This document shows positions 50,196-60,989 of a DNA stretch of 64,000 bases, in pieces (the stretch's first letter is position 1; each line of letters opens with the position of its first letter). A program made the position numbers and the translations under genes. The notes beneath the pieces are model-generated. The model worked only from the letters and a program-made list of their open reading frames with translations, did not search any database and was not told where the DNA came from. Source of the DNA: Dyella marensis (GTDB taxonomy: Bacteria; Pseudomonadota; Gammaproteobacteria; Xanthomonadales; Rhodanobacteraceae); NCBI RefSeq assembly GCF_900112865.1, contig NZ_FONH01000008.1, positions 1-64,000 on the forward strand. The letters are read 5' to 3'.

Positions 50196-50975
50196 TTACG
50201 CGGCGCGGGTTGTCGCGGTGGCGTGATCGAGCAGGGCGCAGGCATGGTGGTACAGGGCCAGGTCGAGCGCATTGCTCGCCATGAAGCGTGCGTGCAGGTC
50301 GCTGCCCAGCAGGGCTTCGAGTTGATCGAGCTGCGCTGCCGGCGTGGTGCGCTCGATCGGCGACACGTTTTCGCAGTCGTAGGCCAGTTCCAGGCCAGGC
50401 AGCAGCGGCGCATAAAGCGCCTGATAGGCGTCGATCGAGCGCTCGTACTGTTCGACCACGCCAGCCATGCCCCAGCCGTCCAGCAGCGCGCAGGCCTCGG
50501 CGAGATCGGCCTCGTTGGCGCAGGCATCCAGGATGTGGCCGCAGCGCCACGAAGCGCTCGACAGGTGCACCACCTGGTAATCGCGGATCACGATGCTGCC
50601 CGGTTCTTCGCGCAGGGCCCAGCGGATGTAGTCGGCGAAACCGTTGTTGATGGCGGCTTCGGCGAAGGGTTGCTGCGGATCGCGGCGGGTGAACAGGTAG
50701 ACCGAATAGGCGCGCAGCAAGGGATGGCGGATGAAGACGACAGGCAGGCTGTCGTCGAAGGGCAGCGGCGGTCGTGCGAGGTGGCTGGAGATCGCCCGGT
50801 AGCCAGGGTTGGCGAGCATGAACCGCCGCAGCTGCTCGGCGCTCTGGATGTCATGGGCGTGCTGGCCTTCGAAACTGCCCCAGCGTTCGCCGAAGCTGCG
50901 CCGGAGGCTGGCGTCCACGCTGGATCCGGCGTTCTTAAAGATGTGGTAGTGAATGAGAGTGGTTACTCGGGTCAT
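50196..50975 (-). CDS. sulfotransferase-family protein
   Basis: A 259-residue protein. The near-N-terminal HIFKNAGSSVDASL resembles the HxPKxxGTS phosphosulfate-binding loop of bacterial sulfotransferases. VFIRHPLLRAYSVYLFTRRD matches the second (3'-phosphate-binding) RxPxxRxxS motif. No signal peptide or membrane segment is seen. Such enzymes use PAPS to sulfate sugars or other acceptors. It lies alone between rmlB and metB on the - strand, with GGAGCTTACGAAT before ATG 50975. The region just upstream is unusually AT-rich. Acceptor is unknown; a sulfated LPS is possible. Confidence 0.72.
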   Translation of the reverse strand: MTRVTTLIHYHIFKNAGSSVDASLRRSFGERWGSFEGQHAHDIQSAEQLRRFMLANPGYRAISSHLARPPLPFDDSLPVVFIRHPLLRAYSVYLFTRRDPQQPFAEAAINNGFADYIRWALREEPGSIVIRDYQVVHLSSASWRCGHILDACANEADLAEACALLDGWGMAGVVEQYERSIDAYQALYAPLLPGLELAYDCENVSPIERTTPAAQLDQLEALLGSDLHARFMASNALDLALYHHACALLDHATATTRAA

Positions 50976-52389: not shown

Positions 52390-52471
52390 AGACGGCTACA
52401 AGGTGGGCGGGGCGCGCGCCGGCTGGCGCCGCTTTCGCCATGGATGCACTTATCGGGTCCACTGTCAGCGC

Positions 52472-53296
52472 ATGATTTCGAAGTACAGCCTTATCGATCC
52501 CCTGTCGCCTTACCGGGCGCTGCAACGCCATTACCACCTGGTGGTGCAGATGGCGCGCCGCGATGTGATCGGCCGCTATCGCGGCTCGTTCATCGGGCTG
52601 CTGTGGTCCTTCTTCAATCCCCTGCTGATGCTCGGGGTGTACACCTTCGTGTTCGGCTTCGTGTTCAAGTCGCGCTGGACGGGGCAGGGCGGCGGGCATT
52701 TCGAGTTCGCGGTGATCCTGTTCGCCGGCCTGAACATCAATACGCTGTTCCAGGAATGCGCCACGCGCGCGCCGACGCTGATCATCGAGAACCGCAACTT
52801 CGTCAAGCGCATCGTGTTCCCGCTGGAGACGTTGTCGTGGAGCACGCTGGGCTCGGCGCTGTTCCACCTGCTGATCTCCACCATCGTGCTGCTGGCGTTC
52901 TCGCTGGTGATCCGCGGCTACGTGCCGTGGACGGTCGTGTATTTCCCGATCGTGGTGCTGGTATTCATGCCGTTCATGGCCGGCCTGACCTGGGTGCTGT
53001 CCTCGCTGGGCGTGTTCATGCGCGACCTCAAGCACGCGATGGGCATCATCACGGTGATGATGATGTTCCTGGCGCCGATCTTCTATTCGAAGGAAATGAT
53101 CCCCGAGCGCTATCGCCAGCTGCTCTATCTCAATCCGCTCACGGTCATCGTGGAAGCCTCGCGCGACGTGTTGATCTGGGGGCACGCGCCGAACTGGCTG
53201 CACCTGGGCGCCTATACCGTCGCCGCCTGCCTGTTCGCCTGGCTGGCCTTCGCGTGGTTCGAGAAGACCAGGAAGGGGTTTGCCGATGTCCTCTGA
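52472..53296 (+). CDS. wzm: O-antigen ABC transporter, permease (Wzm)
   Basis: A 274-residue ABC-2 permease with six hydrophobic segments. The typical N-terminus is RALQRHYHLVVQMARRDVIGRYRGSFIGLLWSFFNPLLMLGVYTFVF. FVKRIVFPLETLSW and a C-terminal PIFYSKEMIPERYRQLLYLNPLTVIVEASR motif complete it. It pairs with Wzt to export an undecaprenyl-linked O-polysaccharide finished on the cytoplasmic side. ATG 52472 is used; its stop overlaps the start of wzt. Confidence 0.95.
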   Translation: MISKYSLIDPLSPYRALQRHYHLVVQMARRDVIGRYRGSFIGLLWSFFNPLLMLGVYTFVFGFVFKSRWTGQGGGHFEFAVILFAGLNINTLFQECATRAPTLIIENRNFVKRIVFPLETLSWSTLGSALFHLLISTIVLLAFSLVIRGYVPWTVVYFPIVVLVFMPFMAGLTWVLSSLGVFMRDLKHAMGIITVMMMFLAPIFYSKEMIPERYRQLLYLNPLTVIVEASRDVLIWGHAPNWLHLGAYTVAACLFAWLAFAWFEKTRKGFADVL

Positions 53297-54689
53297 AGCG
53301 ATGATCTCGGTCGAGGCGCTCGGCAAGAAATACGACATCTACGCGCAGCCGTTGGACCGCCTCAAGCAGATGGTGCTGCCGCGCGTCGGCCGGATGATGG
53401 GACGCCATGGCCTCACCTACCACAAGGAATTCTGGGCGCTGCGCGACGTCAGCTTCAGCGTGCGCCGCGGCGAGACGGTGGGCATCATCGGGCGCAACGG
53501 CTCGGGCAAGTCCACCCTGCTGCAGATGGTCTGCGGCACCTTGCATCCCACCGAGGGCGAGGTGCGCACGCAGGGCCGCATTGCGGCGCTGCTGGAGCTG
53601 GGTGCGGGGTTCAATCCCGAGTTCACCGGCGAAGAGAACGTCTACCTCAGCGGCCTGCTGTACGGCATTCCCGAGGTCGAGCTGCGCAAGCGCTTCGATT
53701 CGATCCTGGCCTTCGCCGACATCGGCGACTTCATCCGCCAGCCGGTGAAGACCTATTCCAGCGGCATGTACGTACGCCTGGCGTTCTCCATCGCCGCGCA
53801 TGTGGACGCCGACGTGCTGATCATCGACGAGGCGCTCAGCGTCGGCGACGTGCGCTTCACCCAGAAATGCATGCGCTTCCTGCGCGAATTCCAGAAGAAC
53901 GGCACCTTGCTGTTCGTCAGCCACGACACCGGCGCCGTCACCAACCTGTGCGACCGCGCGGTATGGCTGGACCGCGGCAAGCTGGTGATGGACGGCGTGA
54001 CGCGCGACGTGGTGGAGGCCTACCTGGCCGCGCAGCACGCGGCCGATCGCGCCGGCACGGGCGATGCGGTGACCATCCATGCGGCAAAGAACGACGACGA
54101 ATCCGGCAAGCGGCGCGCCATCGTGGAAGCACCGGCCCAGGATGCGATCGACTGCCGCCAGGATGCACCGGACGGTTCGAGACCTGGACATTTCGTGAAG
54201 GTTTTCCAGTTCGATCCCGATAATGTCGGCAGCGCTTTCGGCGCCGGCCATGCGGAGATCGTCGCGGTGAACCTGCGCGATACCAACGGCGTTCCGGTAC
54301 AGATTCTCTATGGCGGCGAGCTGGTCGACCTGACCATCGACGCGCGCGCCAGCGTTTCCATCGAGGGCCCTATCCTCGGCTTCTACGTGAAGGACCGCCT
54401 GGGCCAGCGACTGTTCGGCGACAACACGTATATGCCCTATCAAAACCGGCCGGTGAAACTGGAAGCCAACACCGGCGTGCGCGCCGTGTTCCGCTTCCGC
54501 ATGCCGATCCTGCCGACCGGCGACTACTCCATCGATGTCGCGTTGGCCACCGGCTCGCAGGACGACCACACGCAGCAGCACTGGATCCATGACGCCCTGG
54601 CGTTCCGCGCCAGCGAGAGCACCATGCGCCATGGCCTGGTAGGCATTCCCATGCTTTCCATCGAGCTGCAGCCGACGGGAGGACGCTGA
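53286..54689 (+). CDS. wzt: O-antigen ABC transporter, ATPase with C-terminal recognition domain (Wzt)
   Basis: A 467-residue protein. Residues 1-~245 are an ABC ATPase: Walker A GRNGSGKS at about 69-76, [13 protein letters not shown], signature [12 protein letters not shown], Walker [13 protein letters not shown] and the H-loop FVSHDTG. Residues ~290-467 form a separate beta-rich domain ([68 protein letters not shown]). This is the Wzt C-terminal domain, which in some systems reads the modified non-reducing end of the polymer before export. ATG 53286 follows GGAAGGGG. The next gene begins at the last base of its stop. Confidence 0.95.
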
Positions 54690-57600
54690 TGGAATTCACC
54701 GGCGAACGCTTCGTTCCCACCGAAGCCGGCGAGATCCGCCACGAGCATCTGCACCGCTATGCCTGGTGCCGCGCGCTGGCGCGCGGCAAGACCGTGCTGG
54801 ATATCGCCTGCGGCGAAGGCTACGGCAGCGCCATGCTGGCGCAGACCGCGGCGTCGGTGATCGGCATCGACATCTCCGACGAGGCCGTGGCGCATGCGGC
54901 GCATACCTATGCGGGCATCGCCAACCTGAGCTACCGGCAGGGCGATGCGGCGGTCATTCCGCTGCCGGACGACGCGGTCGACATGGTGGTGTCGTTCGAG
55001 ACTATCGAACATCACGACCGCCACCAGGAAATGATCGACGAGATCCGCCGCGTGCTGCGTCCCGGCGGCGTGCTGGTGCTGTCCTCGCCCAATCGGCCGG
55101 TGTATTCGGACAAGGCTGGCCACCACAACGAGTTCCACGTCAAGGAACTCGATTTCCAGGAACTCGACGACCTGCTGCGCACGCGCTTTCCCAAGGTGCG
55201 CTACTACGGTCAGCGCCTGGCGGTCGGCTCGGCGCTGGCGCCGATGGCGATCGAGGATACCGGCGCCGATATGCAGGCCTTTACCGACACCGGCGACGAA
55301 GTGCTTGAGCGTTCGGTGCGCCTGATCGATCCGGTCTACTTCGTGGCGGTCGCGACCGACGGGCAGACCGAGCTGCCGAAGCTGCCGCCGGCGGTGTTCT
55401 TCTCCGAGTCCGAAGACCTCTACAACCACCACCATGACGTGGCGAAGTGGGCGCAGGGTATCGACGCCGAACTCACCGAAGTGCGCGGCAGGTACGGTGC
55501 CCTGGTCGAGGAGCACGAGGGCGTGGCGAAGTGGGCGCAGAGCCTGGATCGCGAGCTGGAGGGGCTGAAGCGACGCGAGGTGCGGGTCACCGAGATCGAG
55601 CGCAAGCTCGACCGCCTCGGCAGCCAGCTGCTGGGTGAGGAGTTCCTGGAAAGCCCGACGGCTGCCTCCGCGCGGCGCGACGATACCGTGGTCGGGGCCC
55701 TGGTCCACGAAGTCAGCGAATTTCACCAGGAGAACCGTCTGCTGCGCGAGCGGCTGGAGCATGCGCAGGCGCGGATCGAGGGCCTGCGGGCCCTCATCGA
55801 CAAGCACGAGCTGTTCGCCCGCCACGCGCGCGAGCGCGTCCAGGAATTGACCGAAAGCGAGCGCCGGTTGCGCACGTCCTTCGACACGGTGGTGTCGTCG
55901 CGCTCCTGGAAGCTCACCAAGCCGGTCCGCTTCATGGGGCGCCTGCTGCGCGGCGACTGGGCGACCGCCGCCGAATCCGTGCGGCACAACGCGCTGGTGC
56001 GCTCGGCCGCGCTGGCGCCGGTGCGCAAGCTGGTCAGGAAGCATCTGCTCAAGACCGGCCAGGTGCAGCCGGCGGTGGTGGCGGAGCCGGACGAGACGCC
56101 GGCGGAGATCGTCGCCAAGCTGGCTTTCCCCGAATACGCCAACCCCAAGGTCAGCGTAATCATTCCCGCCTACGGCCGGCTCGATCACACCGCGGCCTGC
56201 CTGCGCTCGATCATGCAGCACATGCCGAAGGACGCGATCGAGATCATCGTGGCCGAGGATGCCTCCGGCGACGAGGAGATCCACCTGCTCGCCCAGGTGC
56301 CCGGGCTGCGCTACGAGGTCAATCCGCAGAACCTGGGCTTCATCCGCTCCTGCAATCGCGCGGCCAGCCTGGCGCGCGGCGAGTACGTCTACTTCCTCAA
56401 CAACGACACTCGCGTCATGCCAGGCTGGCTCGACGGCCTGTTCGACGTGTTCCATCGTTTCGACGATTGCGGCATGGTCGGTTCCAAGCTGGTCTATCCG
56501 GACGGCCGCCTGCAGGAAGCCGGCGGCATCATCTGGGACGATGCCTCCGGCTGGAATTTCGGGCGCCTGTCCGACCCGACGCTGCCGGAGTTCAACTACG
56601 TGCGCGAAGTCGATTACTGCTCCGGCGCATCGCTGCTGATCAAGGCGGCGCTGTTCCGGCAGCTGGGCGGCTTCGACGAGCTGTATGTGCCAGCCTATTG
56701 CGAGGACTCGGACCTGGCCTTCAAGGTCCGCGCGGCCGGCCTCAAGGTGTACTACACGCCGTTCTCCACCGTCGTGCACTACGAAGGCATCTCGCACGGC
56801 ACCGACGAGACCGCCGGCATCAAGGCCTACCAGGTCGAGAACCAGAAGAAATTCGCCGAGCGCTGGCGCGAGGTGCTCGAGCGCGACCACTATCCGAATG
56901 CCCGCAACGTGTTCCGCGCGCGCGAGCGCTCCAAGGACAAGCCGGTGGTGCTGGTCATCGACCACTACGTGCCGCAGATGGATCGCGACGCCGGCTCGCG
57001 CACCATGTTCCAGTTCATCAAGCAGCTGTGCGCGCTGGGCTGCTCGGTCAAGCTGTGGCCGGAAAATCTTTGGCGCGATCCGACCTATACGCCGTTGTTG
57101 CAGGAGATGGGCGTGGAGGTGATCTTCGGCGCCGACTGGGGCGGCGGCTTCGAGCGTTACGTGCAGGAAGCCCAGGGCCAGATCGATCGCGTCCTGCTCA
57201 GCCGGCCGCATGTCGCCGGCAAGTTCATCCGCGCCATCAAGAAGCATCTGCCGGACGCGCGCATCGCCTACTACGGCCATGACCTGCACTTCGCCCGGCT
57301 GCGCCAGCGCTACGAGCTGACCCACGAACCGAAGTACCTGGACGAAGCTCGCGAGATGGAGGCCGATGAGCGCGCGCTGTGGCGCAAGAGCGACATCGTG
57401 CTGTATCCCTCCAGCGACGAGGCGGATGTCGTGCGCCAGCTGGAGCCGGGCGTCGATGCGCGCGCGATCCAGGCCTATGCCTACGAAAGCTTCCCCACCG
57501 ACGGCCTTGCACCGGAGCGGCGCGCGGGCCTGCTATTCGTCGCCGGCTTCGGCCATCCGCCGAACGAGGATGCCGCGGTGTGGCTGGTCGAGGATATCCT

Positions 57601-58054
57601 GCCGAAGATCCGCGCCCGTGTGCCCGAGGTGACGCTGTACCTGGTCGGCTCCAATCCGACCGCGCGCGTGGAGGCGCTGTCCAGCGCCGGCGTGGTCGTC
57701 ACCGGTTTCGTGGACGATGCGGCGCTGCAGGATTTCTACGCGCGCAGCCGCGTCGCCGTGGTGCCGCTGCGCTTCGGCGCAGGCGTGAAGTCGAAGGTGG
57801 TGGAAGCCTTGCAGCAGGGCCTGCCGCTGGTGACCACCGCGGTGGGCGCCCAGGGCCTGGCCGGGCTGGAGCAGGTGGCGAAGGTCGCGGACGACGCGGA
57901 TGCCATCGCTGCCGCGGTGGCGGACCTGCTGACCGGTGCCGACGAATGGAGCAGCCTGTCGGCCGCGGGCACCCGCTACGCGCAAGCGCATTTCTCAACC
58001 GGCTCTCTGCGTAGAGCTCTCGCCGACGCCCTGGAATTGAAGAGTCTTTCATGA
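54689..58054 (+). CDS. 1121-residue methyltransferase / coiled-coil / GT2 / GT4 fusion
   Basis: Four parts in order. Residues ~1-225 are a class I SAM methyltransferase (motif [13 protein letters not shown] at 36-47, [14 protein letters not shown]). Residues ~245-425 are a coiled coil with a 28-residue repeat of VAKWAQxxDxEL starting at 251 and 279, followed by the linker motif [22 protein letters not shown]. Residues ~484-750 are a GT2 glycosyltransferase ([51 protein letters not shown]). Residues ~750-1115 are a GT4-type GT-B ([68 protein letters not shown]). It overlaps wzt by one base and hddA by 4. Acceptors are unknown. Confidence 0.88.
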
Positions 58055-59079
58055 TCGTCCGATCGCGCGCGCCCTTGCGTCTTGGCCTGGCCGGCGGTGG
58101 CACCGACGTGTCGCCGTACTGCGACATCTACGGCGGCCATGTGATGAACGCCACCATCGACAAGCACGCCTTCGCCATCCTCTCCGAGCCCGAATCCGGC
58201 CAGCGCGAGTTCTGCGCGATCGACGTCGGCGTATCCGAAGTGCTCGGCGGCGACGAGGCGCTGGTGCCGGATGGTCCGCTCAAGCTGCTGAAGGGCGTCT
58301 ACGCGCGCATCTGCAACGAGTTCCTCGGCGGCGAGCCGCGTCCGCTGAAGGTGCAGACGTTCTCGGACGCGCCGCCGGGCTCGGGCCTGGGTTCGTCCTC
58401 GACCATGGTGGTGGCGCTGGTGCAGGCCTTCGCCGAATACTTCGCGCTGCCGCTGGGCGAGTACGAAGTGGCCCATCTCGCCTACGACATCGAGCGCAAG
58501 GACCTGGGGCTGGCCGGCGGCAAGCAGGATCAGTACGCGGCGGCGTTCGGCGGATTCAACTTCATGGAGTTCTACAAGGACGACCGCGTCATCGTGAACC
58601 CGCTGCGCATCAAGGACTGGGTGTGGTCGGAGCTGGAAGCCTCGCTGGTGCTGTACTTCACCGGTGTCTCGCGCGCCTCGGCCGACATCATCGACCAGCA
58701 GTCGCGCAATGTGGTCGAAGGCAATCGCAGCTCGATCGACGCCATGCACAGCCTCAAGCAGGAGGCCGTGCAGATGAAGGAATGCGTGCTGCGCGGCGAC
58801 CTGCAGGGCCTGGCGCGCACGCTGCAGGCCGGCTGGGAAGCGAAGAAGAACATGGCCAGCTCGATCAGCAACCCGGTGATCGAGCAGGTGGAGCGCGTGG
58901 CTTTCGCCAATGGCGCCCACGCGGCCAAGGTATCGGGCGCGGGCGGCGGCGGCTTCATGATGTTCATGTGCAGCCCCGACAAGCGCATCGGATTGACCCG
59001 GGCATTGGCCGAACAGGGCGGCCGTCTGCTCGATTTCCATTTCACGCAACAAGGAGCGACGTCATGGCGCATCATGTGA
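58051..59079 (+). CDS. hddA: D-glycero-alpha-D-manno-heptose 7-phosphate kinase (HddA)
   Basis: A 342-residue GHMP kinase. The N-terminal [23 protein letters not shown], the ATP motif [19 protein letters not shown] (residues ~108-126) and the C-terminal [14 protein letters not shown] are all present, as is [16 protein letters not shown]. This is the HddA type that phosphorylates C1 of heptose-7-P in the alpha (GDP) branch. gmhA, hddC and gmhB follow with overlapping ends, so the pathway is complete. The C-terminus overlaps gmhA by 16 bases. Confidence 0.92.
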
Positions 59080-59678
59080 AAGCCATGCTGCAATCCGAAT
59101 TCAGCAAGTCCATCGCCCTGCTGCAGACCATGTCCGGGGACGAGGCGCTGCACGGCCAGGTGCAGCAGGTGCTGGAGCTGTCGGTGCAGGCACTGAAGAG
59201 CGGCAACAAGCTGCTGTTCGCCGGCAACGGCGGCAGCGCGGCCGACGCCCAGCACTGGGCGGGCGAGCTGGTCAGCCGCTTTTACTTCGATCGCCCGGGC
59301 CTGCCCGCGATCGCGCTGACCACCGACACCAGCATCCTGACCGCGATCGGCAACGACTATGGCTACGACTACGTGTTCGCGCGCCAGGTCGAGGCGCTGG
59401 GGCAGGCGGGCGACGTGCTGTTCGCCATCTCCACCTCCGGCAATTCCAAGAACATCGTGCGCGCGATCGACGCGGCCAGGACCAAGGGCCTCAAGGTGGT
59501 CGGCTTCACGGGGCAGGGCGGTGGAGCGATGGCTGTGCTGTGCGACGTCTGCTTCCGCGTGCCGTCGCCGGAGACGCCGCGCATCCAGGAAGGCCACGAG
59601 GCGCTGGGCCACCTGATCTGTGCGCTGATCGAGCAGGAAATCTTCGGTCAGGAAAAGACGGGCGATGCTGGGCACTGA
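59064..59678 (+). CDS. gmhA: sedoheptulose-7-phosphate isomerase (GmhA, SIS domain)
   Basis: A 204-residue SIS-domain isomerase. LLFAGNGGSAADAQHWAGELVSRF (with the His/Glu active-site set), ALTTDTSILTAIGNDYGYDYVF, FAISTSGNSKNIVRAIDAA and VPSPETPRIQEGHEALGHLICALIE are the GmhA landmarks. It turns sedoheptulose-7-P into D-glycero-D-manno-heptose-7-P. AAGGAGCGACGTC stands before ATG 59064 inside the end of hddA. A second copy for LPS core biosynthesis may exist elsewhere; here it belongs to the GDP-heptose set. It overlaps hddC by 14 bases. Confidence 0.93.
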   Translation: MAHHVKAMLQSEFSKSIALLQTMSGDEALHGQVQQVLELSVQALKSGNKLLFAGNGGSAADAQHWAGELVSRFYFDRPGLPAIALTTDTSILTAIGNDYGYDYVFARQVEALGQAGDVLFAISTSGNSKNIVRAIDAARTKGLKVVGFTGQGGGAMAVLCDVCFRVPSPETPRIQEGHEALGHLICALIEQEIFGQEKTGDAGH

Positions 59679-60363
59679 CGAGGCGATCATCCTCGCCGGC
59701 GGTTTCGGCACGCGCCTGCGCAGCGTCGTGAAGGACCTGCCCAAGCCGCTGGCGCCGGTGGCGGGGCGTCCGTTTCTCGCTCATGTGCTGGACCTGATCG
59801 CCGGCCAGGGCATCCGGCGCGCCGTGCTCGCCACCGGCTTCATGGCCGATCGGGTGGAGCAGGAGCTGGGCCACGACTGGCACGGCATGCAGCTGGTGTA
59901 CTCGCCCGAGACCGAGCCGCTGGGCACCGGCGGAGCGATCGCCAAGGCCATGCCGCTGCTGGCCGGCGACGCGTTCTTCGTCTTGAACGGCGATACCTTC
60001 CTGTCGCTCGATTACGCCGCGCTCGACCGCGCGGCCCGTGCGGCGGACCGGAGCATGTGCATGGCGCTGGCCGCGGTGCCCGACGTGGCGCGCTACGGCG
60101 CCGTGGTAGTTGAAGATGCGCGCGTCACCGGCTTCCGGGAAAAGGGCCAGCCGGGCCCCGGCTTCATCAATGCGGGCGTCTATCGGCTGCGCCACGAGGT
60201 GCAGGAGCGTTTCCCCGCGACGGCGAACTTCTCGTTCGAGACGGACGTGATGGCCGCGCTGGTGGCGGCCGGCCAGGTGAGCGCGTTCGCGCAGACGCAG
60301 CGCTTCATCGACATCGGCGTGCCGGAAGACTACGAACGCGCCCAGACCGAGCTGGCCGCATGA
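59665..60363 (+). CDS. hddC: D-glycero-alpha-D-manno-heptose 1-phosphate guanylyltransferase (HddC)
   Basis: A 232-residue nucleotidyltransferase. AIILAGGFGTRLRSVVKDLPKPLAPVAGRPF is the sugar-1-P NTP-transferase start. LGTGGAIAKAMP, FFVLNGDTFLSLD, FREKGQPGPGFINAGVYRL and FSFETDVM follow, with FIDIGVPEDYERAQ at the end. By its neighbours it is HddC, joining GMP to heptose-1-P to give GDP-heptose. The family also includes uridylyl and mannosyl transferases, so the heptose role is inferred from context. It overlaps both flanking genes. Confidence 0.85.
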   Translation: MLGTDEAIILAGGFGTRLRSVVKDLPKPLAPVAGRPFLAHVLDLIAGQGIRRAVLATGFMADRVEQELGHDWHGMQLVYSPETEPLGTGGAIAKAMPLLAGDAFFVLNGDTFLSLDYAALDRAARAADRSMCMALAAVPDVARYGAVVVEDARVTGFREKGQPGPGFINAGVYRLRHEVQERFPATANFSFETDVMAALVAAGQVSAFAQTQRFIDIGVPEDYERAQTELAA

Positions 60364-60989
60364 GCGCGCCGTCGGCGCAGGGTCCGCGCGTGTTTCTCGA
60401 TGAGCGGGCCGTACTCGGAGCCAAGACGCTGCGACCGGCGTTGTTCCTCGACCGCGACGGCGTGATCAACGTCGATCACGGCTATGTGCATCGCGCCGAA
60501 GACACGCAGTGGCTGCCCGGCATCTTCGAGCTGGTGCGGCGCGCCCGCGCGGCCGGCTATCTGTGCATCGTGGTTTCCAACCAGGCCGGCCTGGCGCGCG
60601 GCTACTACACCGACGCGCAGTTCCGCGCCTATACCGCGTGGATGCATGCCGAGTTCGCCCGGCATGGCGCGCCGCTCGATGCCACCTATTACTGCCCGCA
60701 TCACCCCGAGGCCGGCCTGGGCGATCTGAAACAGGCCTGCGACTGCCGCAAGCCGCAACCGGGCATGTTCCTGGCCGCGCGCGATGCACTGGGCGTCGAC
60801 CTGCCGGTCTCGATCATGGTGGGCAATCAGGCGACCGACATGCAGGCGGCATTGGCCGCCGCGGTGGGCCGTTGCTATTGGCTCGACGGGGAACGCGATC
60901 GTGCCGCCGAATGGGGCGGCAAGGTGATCGTCGCCGCGGGCCTGGACGACATCATGCCTGCGGGGGAAATTGCCGCGCAGCCCGGTTGA
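60360..60989 (+). CDS. gmhB: heptose 1,7-bisphosphate 7-phosphatase (GmhB)
   Basis: A 209-residue histidinol-phosphatase-like HAD enzyme. Motif I is ALFLDRDGVINVDHGYV. VVSNQAGLARGYYT (motif II) follows. The zinc-binding cysteine/histidine set lies in YYCPHHPEAGLGDLKQACDCRKPQPGMF, and motif IV is IMVGNQATDM. GmhB removes the 7-phosphate after HddA action. An N-terminal extension (about 25 residues, MSAPSAQGPRVFLDERAVLG) precedes the core. It overlaps hddC by 4 bases. In the motif IV region a Gln stands where Asp is more usual (VGNQATDM), which is worth checking. Confidence 0.9.
   Translation: MSAPSAQGPRVFLDERAVLGAKTLRPALFLDRDGVINVDHGYVHRAEDTQWLPGIFELVRRARAAGYLCIVVSNQAGLARGYYTDAQFRAYTAWMHAEFARHGAPLDATYYCPHHPEAGLGDLKQACDCRKPQPGMFLAARDALGVDLPVSIMVGNQATDMQAALAAAVGRCYWLDGERDRAAEWGGKVIVAAGLDDIMPAGEIAAQPG

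Follow-up and report, generated by a model that had tools for sequence, protein, structure and literature searches.

The locus considered here raises the question of how one protein, carrying enzymes for both lengthening and modifying a polysaccharide chain, might recognise when that chain is finished. The window analysed, a stretch of 64,000 nucleotides (nt) from Dyella marensis (contig NZ_FONH01000008.1, positions 1 to 64,000), contains at 54689-58054 a gene whose product joins a methyltransferase, a coiled coil and two glycosyltransferase (GT) modules. The gene lies immediately behind wzm and wzt, which encode an ABC transporter. The protein is probably a chain-terminating ruler fused to its own polymerase, with a methyl cap that is read by Wzt. 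The features on which this reading draws are as follows.

52403-53296, forward strand: wzm, ABC transporter permease (PF01061, ABC2_membrane, E 1e-27)
53286-54689, forward strand: wzt, ABC transporter ATPase with a C-terminal, proposed cap-reading domain of family I (PF00005; PF14524, Wzt_C, E 5e-34)
54689-58054, forward strand: whole gene, methyltransferase, coiled coil, GT2 and GT4, 1121 amino acids (open reading frame calling, Pfam)
54689-55363, forward strand: S-adenosylmethionine (SAM, AdoMet) methyltransferase domain, residues 1-225, the proposed cap writer (PF08241, E 1e-23; strands in the structural model to residue 223)
54794-54826, forward strand: AdoMet-binding motif, residues 36-46 (invariant D38 and G42-G46)
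55418-55633, forward strand: first coil segment, residues 244-315 (helix in the model, 3.5-residue period)
55439-55522, forward strand: 28-residue brick 1, residues 251-278 (DNA repeat, W-motif spacing, brick profile)
55523-55606, forward strand: 28-residue brick 2, residues 279-306 (same three lines of evidence)
55667-55894, forward strand: second coil segment, residues 327-402 (helix in the model, 3.5-residue period)
55898-55927, forward strand: conserved motif at the coil end, residues 404-413 (in 12 of 17 methyltransferase-type frames)
56150-56923, forward strand: GT2 module, residues 488-745 (PF00535, E 1.5e-19)
56939-58018, forward strand: GT4 module, residues 751-1110 (PF13692, E 2e-24)

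The reading frame starts with ATG and is open throughout its 1121 codons plus stop. Its junction with wzt reads CGCTGATGG, in which the final A of the wzt stop codon TGA doubles as the first base of the ATG (a 1-base overlap), as the original prediction had stated; the wzt ATG at 53286 in turn overlaps the wzm stop. The same prediction, made from sequence without database searches, had placed methyltransferase, coiled coil, GT2 and GT4 in one protein. The domain search proposed with it, run here with Pfam, recovered all three enzyme domains (Methyltransf_11 at residues 37-131, E 1e-23; Glycos_transf_2 at 489-609, E 1.5e-19; Glyco_trans_1_4 at 948-1082, E 2e-24), and the coil tests below supply the fourth part. 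The predicted recognition domain at the C-terminus of Wzt is likewise present (PF14524, E 5e-34). The AdoMet-binding residues, whose loss had been named as grounds for abandoning the idea, are intact: D38, G42, E43, G44, Y45 and G46 do not vary across the 14 aligned rows (window included), and 34 of 35 methyltransferase-class proteins read GEGYG at this site, the remaining one GAGYG. The predicted absence of the WbdD kinase was also borne out, as Pfam found no kinase domain in the window protein and about 20 residues separate the last methyltransferase strand (to 223) from the coil (from 244) in the AlphaFold2 model.

In that model the coil runs between residues 244 and 402 and is interrupted near 316-326. 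Both segments form long helices when a lone chain is modelled, with low confidence in the coil, and the 3.5-residue period in each is stronger than in all 5000 shuffled sequences. Structural searches returned generic GT and methyltransferase structures among the 50 best Foldseek matches in the PDB, including N-acetylgalactosamine transferases for the GT2 module and retaining enzymes such as MshA for the GT4 module. The methyltransferase matches the WbdD structure 4azs weakly (residues 61-161, E 5.8e-5), and many other methyltransferases score better.

In the proposed working, the GT2 and GT4 modules at the C-terminal end would lengthen a lipid-linked chain, which probably contains manno-heptose since genes of guanosine diphosphate (GDP)-heptose type follow. 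The coiled coil, some 22 nm long with about 148 residues in helix, would hold the methyltransferase off the GT modules. A chain long enough to reach the methyltransferase would then receive an O-methyl group directly on its terminal sugar, which would stop growth, and the C-terminal domain of Wzt would recognise the methyl cap and admit the chain to export. For this protein we infer the cap chemistry, the sugar, the oligomeric state and the setting of chain length by coil length. Two comparisons favour such a scheme: the estimated coil length comes near the roughly 20 nm reported for WbdD, in which changes to the coil alter chain length (PMC5082667), and the order terminator, coil, polymerase is that of proven Klebsiella pneumoniae proteins (PMC11231755).

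Among published systems, one close in layout is WsaE, which, like the window protein, has an N-terminal methyltransferase and two GT modules and is encoded after wzm-wzt with overlapping codons; a proposed 2-O-methyl cap would end its chain (PMC2943079). Compared by description, WsaE differs in making a surface-layer rhamnan in the Gram-positive Geobacillus stearothermophilus NRS 2004/3a, whereas the window gene precedes GDP-heptose-type genes. A WsaE match was reported in 2010 in the lipopolysaccharide (LPS) cluster of Xanthomonas oryzae BXO8, with its methyltransferase part left unspecified (PMC3898925). ORF6 of K. pneumoniae O7, a proven terminator, is built as methyltransferase, kinase, carbohydrate-binding module, coil, GT2 and GT2 (PMC11231755). 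It shares with the window protein a methyltransferase at one end, a coil, and two GT modules at the other, but the window protein has neither kinase nor carbohydrate-binding module before its coil and pairs GT2 with GT4. WbbB of K. pneumoniae O12 is likewise a single chain that comprises a terminator, a coil ruler and the two GTs of polymerisation (PMC11231755), its terminator being an N-terminal 3-deoxy-D-manno-oct-2-ulosonic acid (Kdo) transferase where the window protein has a methyltransferase. WbdD of Escherichia coli O8/O9a also sets a methyltransferase on a coiled-coil ruler, and the form of O8/O5 adds methyl only; unlike the window protein, it works beside a separate polymerase, WbdA, and its O9a form has a kinase.

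As in these ruler-terminators, the putative terminator of the window protein lies across the coil from the polymerase modules, judged from domain order and a predicted coil, and its Wzt has a C-domain of the cap-reading type. Fusion of terminator, coil and polymerase is already shown by WsaE and by the O7 and O12 proteins of K. pneumoniae, so the window layout is of a known kind. The original statement that no such four-part layout is known was consequently rejected; the layout also recurs in 35 of the 58 proteins compared below. Rejected too was the missing kinase as an argument against capping, because methyl-only termination is known: in K. pneumoniae O5 the chain terminus carries methyl alone (PMC11231755), E. 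coli O8 is served by a methyltransferase-only homologue (PMC3482155), and the Wzt C-domain of Aquifex aeolicus reads a 3-O-methyl terminal sugar (PMC9445017). The original suggestion of a WbdD-like job fused to the polymerising enzymes thus agrees with domains, gene order and the co-variation described next, and has lost its claim to a novel layout.

Matches to the window protein at E <= 1e-150 occur in 135 of 398 genomes of the order, its own included; most begin past residue 240 and so comprise coil and GT modules only. A search of assembled genome contigs gave 61 loci, of which 14 match from residue 1-3 to beyond 1100; these belong to Lysobacterales, Paraburkholderia, Lachnospiraceae and two other metagenome-assembled genomes. 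Relatives for a table of terminator classes were taken from 42 of the 61 contig loci and from 38 regions of the top-scoring genomes among the 135, the window's own set aside (L-numbers label these loci and regions). To be included, a frame had to carry GT2 and GT4, with no fewer than 380 residues ahead of GT2. Three duplicates (L097, L130, L145) and the incomplete L076 were left out; L075, with 726 residues before GT2, lies outside the submitted set, and L077 was submitted and failed on a cut-off GT4. Most of the 135 belong to a large group with about 40% identity and about 1450-1600 residues, for which L157 and L158 are the only representatives. Class labels were assigned by similarity for L137, L149, L147, L151 and L065, and by eye for L056, L157 and L158; that of L066 is doubtful, Pfam finding no methyltransferase in it.

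The resulting 58 proteins, window included, have homologous GT2-GT4 parts throughout, and the slot before the coil varies. What these relatives add to the published systems is this exchangeable slot, together with a 28-residue brick present 0 to 15 times. The window-type methyltransferase occupies the slot in 35 (four of them distant, at 143-161 bits). A methyltransferase plus a kinase-like domain occurs in 6, a sulfotransferase-like domain in 9, DUF4915/TIGR03032 in 4, and a GT or other domain in 4. The kinase-like label, carried by L045, L096, L147 and L151 among others, rests on K356, D457-x4-N462 and D475-x-E-W, invariant in three rows, and an AlphaFold2 model of the L045 methyltransferase and second-domain end has a mean predicted local distance difference test score (pLDDT) of 45. 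These residues were compared with an APH-type kinase motif. The nine sulfotransferase-like domains (L041, L042, L043, L135, L140, L144, L152, L153 and L156) are homologous to one another and share GMHRSGTS; Pfam gives weak backing, with some PF13469 match in six of the eight tested and one at the cut-off. This domain is a candidate writer of a sulfate cap; a separate sulfotransferase gene between wzt and wbbB has been described elsewhere (PMC4483657). DUF4915, to which Pfam assigns no function, fills the slot in L134, L137, L139 and L149 (Pfam run on L134 and L139). Among plasmids, 13 records matched, one with at least 80% query coverage: a Gluconobacter oxydans plasmid, which carries a relative over 99% of the query at 40.5% identity (NZ_MZ127818.1:55941-59312).

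The type of N-terminal domain and the family of the Wzt C-domain change together. The C-terminal domain of Wzt belongs to family I in 29 of the 33 scored plain-methyltransferase proteins, window included, and in none of the 20 scored proteins with another terminator type (one comparison scored 50 proteins, and L140, L141 and L154 were scored separately; L048, L066, L067, L157 and L158 have no Wzt to score). Among the 50, family I has 29 members, all with plain methyltransferase; family II has 8, four kinase-like and four DUF4915; family III has 7, all sulfotransferase-like; a mixed Lachnospiraceae set has 5, and 1 is a singleton. Mapped on a tree of the GT2-GT4 parts (58 rows), the methyltransferase label switches 15 times, with 14 of the switches forced by starred branches, against a mean of 18.3 for shuffled labels. 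Among 12 independent pairs on this tree, the Wzt C-domain follows the label in a mean of 9.3, goes the opposite way in 0, and shows no difference in 2.7 (median p 0.004). With eight distant rows removed (47 scored rows left), 10 pairs gave 8.8 same, 0 opposite and 1.2 without difference. Sulfotransferase-like proteins, 7 of 9 with family III, gave 5.5 same, 0 opposite and 1.5 without difference in 7 pairs (median p 0.03); L153 and L156 were moved to this class by domain homology after the Wzt C clustering. The clearest single case among 13 hand-chosen pairs is L142 and L149, whose wzm products are 78%, Wzt ATPase parts 62%, GT2 84% and GT4 71% identical, and whose Wzt C-domains are 23% identical and N-terminal domains unrelated. 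For L142 and L128, which have the same terminator, the values are 78% (wzm), 82% (ATPase), 67% (Wzt C), 72% (N-terminal domain), 75% (GT2) and 59% (GT4).

Such co-variation could also arise by hitch-hiking, if neighbouring genes were swapped as one block of DNA without functional pairing. Wherever a family I wzt lies on the same stretch, it stands immediately upstream of the gene, which makes block exchange an alternative to be taken seriously, and two methyltransferase cases with a distant wzt do not have family I. Against this stand the sulfotransferase-like proteins: the seven with family III have a wzt that is not adjacent, lying 0.9 to about 25 kb away, which speaks for functional pairing. 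The binding of a methylated terminal sugar by the A. aeolicus Wzt C-domain (PMC9445017) points the same way, and hitch-hiking is considered unlikely.

Somewhat less likely still is that the methyltransferase acts on sugars inside the repeat or on another non-terminal residue, with the coil as a scaffold joining enzymes and chain length set elsewhere. Methylation by WsaE in vitro is independent of chain length (PMC2943079), and L141 and L154 retain the methyltransferase though the Wzt found for them lacks a family I domain. Against decoration within the chain speak an N-terminal domain that changes together with the Wzt C-domain in a mean of 9.3 of 12 pairs and never oppositely, and a slot that elsewhere holds methyltransferase plus kinase-like domain in the order (the only aspect compared) of the proven terminator O7 ORF6. 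That the protein makes an adaptor or other glycan, e.g. an exopolysaccharide, rather than the O-chain is improbable, given that the gene adjoins Wzm/Wzt with Wzt_C and lies in the LPS interval described below, despite another GT2-GT4 protein encoded close by in this genome (43% identical) and relatives in Gram-positive Lachnospiraceae.

Several observations weigh against a capping ruler fused to its polymerase, beginning with the WsaE result just cited. The sample was hand-picked from the best matches. The four scored methyltransferase proteins without family I are L141, L154, L047 and L080: the first two lie after metB with no wzm/wzt between, the best Wzt matches in their genomes cover the ATPase part only, and in the genome of L154 the best Wzt open frame has 255 amino acids; the other two, on the Lachnospiraceae side, have a Wzt C family common to other terminators. 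L046 is placed in family I by linkage only (35 bits to the window's domain), family II serves two slot types, and ATPase identity is also lower in swapped pairs. An amphipathic membrane helix after the coil was sought in four segments, using a hydrophobicity scale, and none was significant (for the best, 773 of 5000 shuffles were as strong). Coil lengths of close relatives often differ by non-multiples of 7. The idea that coil-length differences always come in heptads was thus rejected: among the anchor differences other than zero, 7 divides 35 and 217 but not 1, 4, 13, 39, 47, 169 and 218. The W-bricks alone keep an exact unit.

The first coil segment is itself repetitive. Two bricks cover 56 of its 72 residues, and the window DNA contains 44-nt repeat copies, 84 nt apart and 75% identical, whose encoded W-motifs are 28 residues apart. 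The 28-residue repeat noted originally is therefore present in two copies here, and it extends across the family: among the 58 proteins, 35 have at least two W-motifs and together give 81 spacings, of which 63 are exactly 28 residues and 5 are 56; another 9 are different multiples of 7, and the remaining 4 (206, 236, 439 and 440) are not divisible by 7. The predominance of exactly 28 argues that the repeat is not due to chance. From 129 units the consensus is V-A-x-W-A-[KQ]-S-L-D-A-E-L-x-x-L-R-x-x-[HY]-G-x-L-[QV]-x-E-H-E-x. Counted as profile matches above 5 bits, copies per protein range from 0 (8 of the 58) up to 15. Bricks accompany different terminator types and are therefore part of the ruler, not of one cap. 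In 200 genomes of the order the brick profile matched 10 places in 9 genomes: two are the window gene and L095, a relative from the same genus; seven are other loci, each with a GT2 match (weak in L179); the tenth shares a reading frame with one of these seven.

Brick number and coil length differ between relatives. Within the methyltransferase class, the interval from the end of the methyltransferase to the SW-motif could be placed at both ends in 27 of 35 proteins, where it spans 105-399 residues. L143 and L146 are 93% identical in their GT parts and 89% in the methyltransferase, yet GT2 begins 197 residues later in L146; the same interval is 159-164 residues in L142 and L143 and 333 in L148, with GT parts 86-87% identical. 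Tandem Repeats Finder gave a period of 84 in all four loci tested, with 11.8 copies in L152, 2.8 in L041, 3.7 in L042 and 3.9 in L148. L152 can also be read at period 168 (5.8 copies, no indels). This 168-nt tandem array (L152:7001-7987) encodes fifteen bricks within a single protein; its 96% matches are a sign of recent ruler growth, or an effect of assembly.

Tentatively, the family may be regarded as a modular machine that writes, measures and reads, in which the cap writer has been swapped repeatedly together with the Wzt reader on a kept polymerase, and the ruler gains or loses bricks of 28 residues as complete units when 84 or 168 nt are duplicated in tandem. In searches of the open-licence PubMed Central literature, none of the papers listed dealt with the bricks or with these terminators (DUF4915/TIGR03032, sulfotransferase, methyltransferase-coil-GT).

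The surroundings of the gene fit an O-chain locus. Directly downstream lie four genes of heptose type.

58051-59079, forward strand: HddA-like heptose-7-phosphate kinase (NCBIfam NF049969, E 2e-122, 409 bits, below the cut-off of 600)
59097-59678, forward strand: GmhA-like SIS-domain isomerase (PF13580; start chosen by eye)
59665-60363, forward strand: HddC-like heptose-1-phosphate guanylyltransferase (NF049965, E 7e-56, 189 bits, below the cut-off of 300)
60360-60989, forward strand: GmhB-like HAD phosphatase (HAD-type Pfam matches)

The names GmhA (59097-59678) and GmhB (60360-60989) are presumed from position. Of 26 relatives examined (duplicate L097 dropped), 19 have matches to HddA, GmhA and HddC together within the locus, alongside different terminators; identities in Lachnospiraceae are only 25-41%. 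Upstream of wzm/wzt is a gene which we take to be metB-like, and beyond the window, past further polysaccharide-type genes, are presumed etfA- and etfB-like genes. A small gene at 50196-50975 on the reverse strand, between rhamnose-type genes and metB, has a presumably sulfotransferase-like start, HYHIFKNAGSSV. An open reading frame that looks similar is present at L173:2249-3061; L173 and L174 are the regions of L154 and L141, the exceptions to the pairing of cap and reader. The second GT2-GT4 protein of the genome (L094:11257-13338, equivalent to C15:69262-71157 of the same genome and outside the window) is 43% identical to residues 477-1115, and stands between genes assumed to be etfB-like and ETF-oxidoreductase-like. 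Short GT2-GT4 frames like it occur near the locus in L095, L096 and L154. The interval from metB to etfA is described as the LPS locus of xanthomonads (PMC2238763).

Control of exported-chain length, and the discrimination of finished from unfinished chains, have so far been worked out in few O-serotypes. This family offers natural experiments: some close relatives differ mainly in coil length, and in others the polymerase is kept and cap writer and Wzt reader have changed together. With such natural relatives, the ideas of a ruler and of a cap code become directly testable. The sulfotransferase-like and DUF4915 domains are candidate chain-terminator domain families. If the family is indeed a modular machine, these domains (the latter as DUF4915/TIGR03032) would represent two chain-ending chemistries, a sulfate cap and a second of undefined kind, of which the searches found no description for O-chains.

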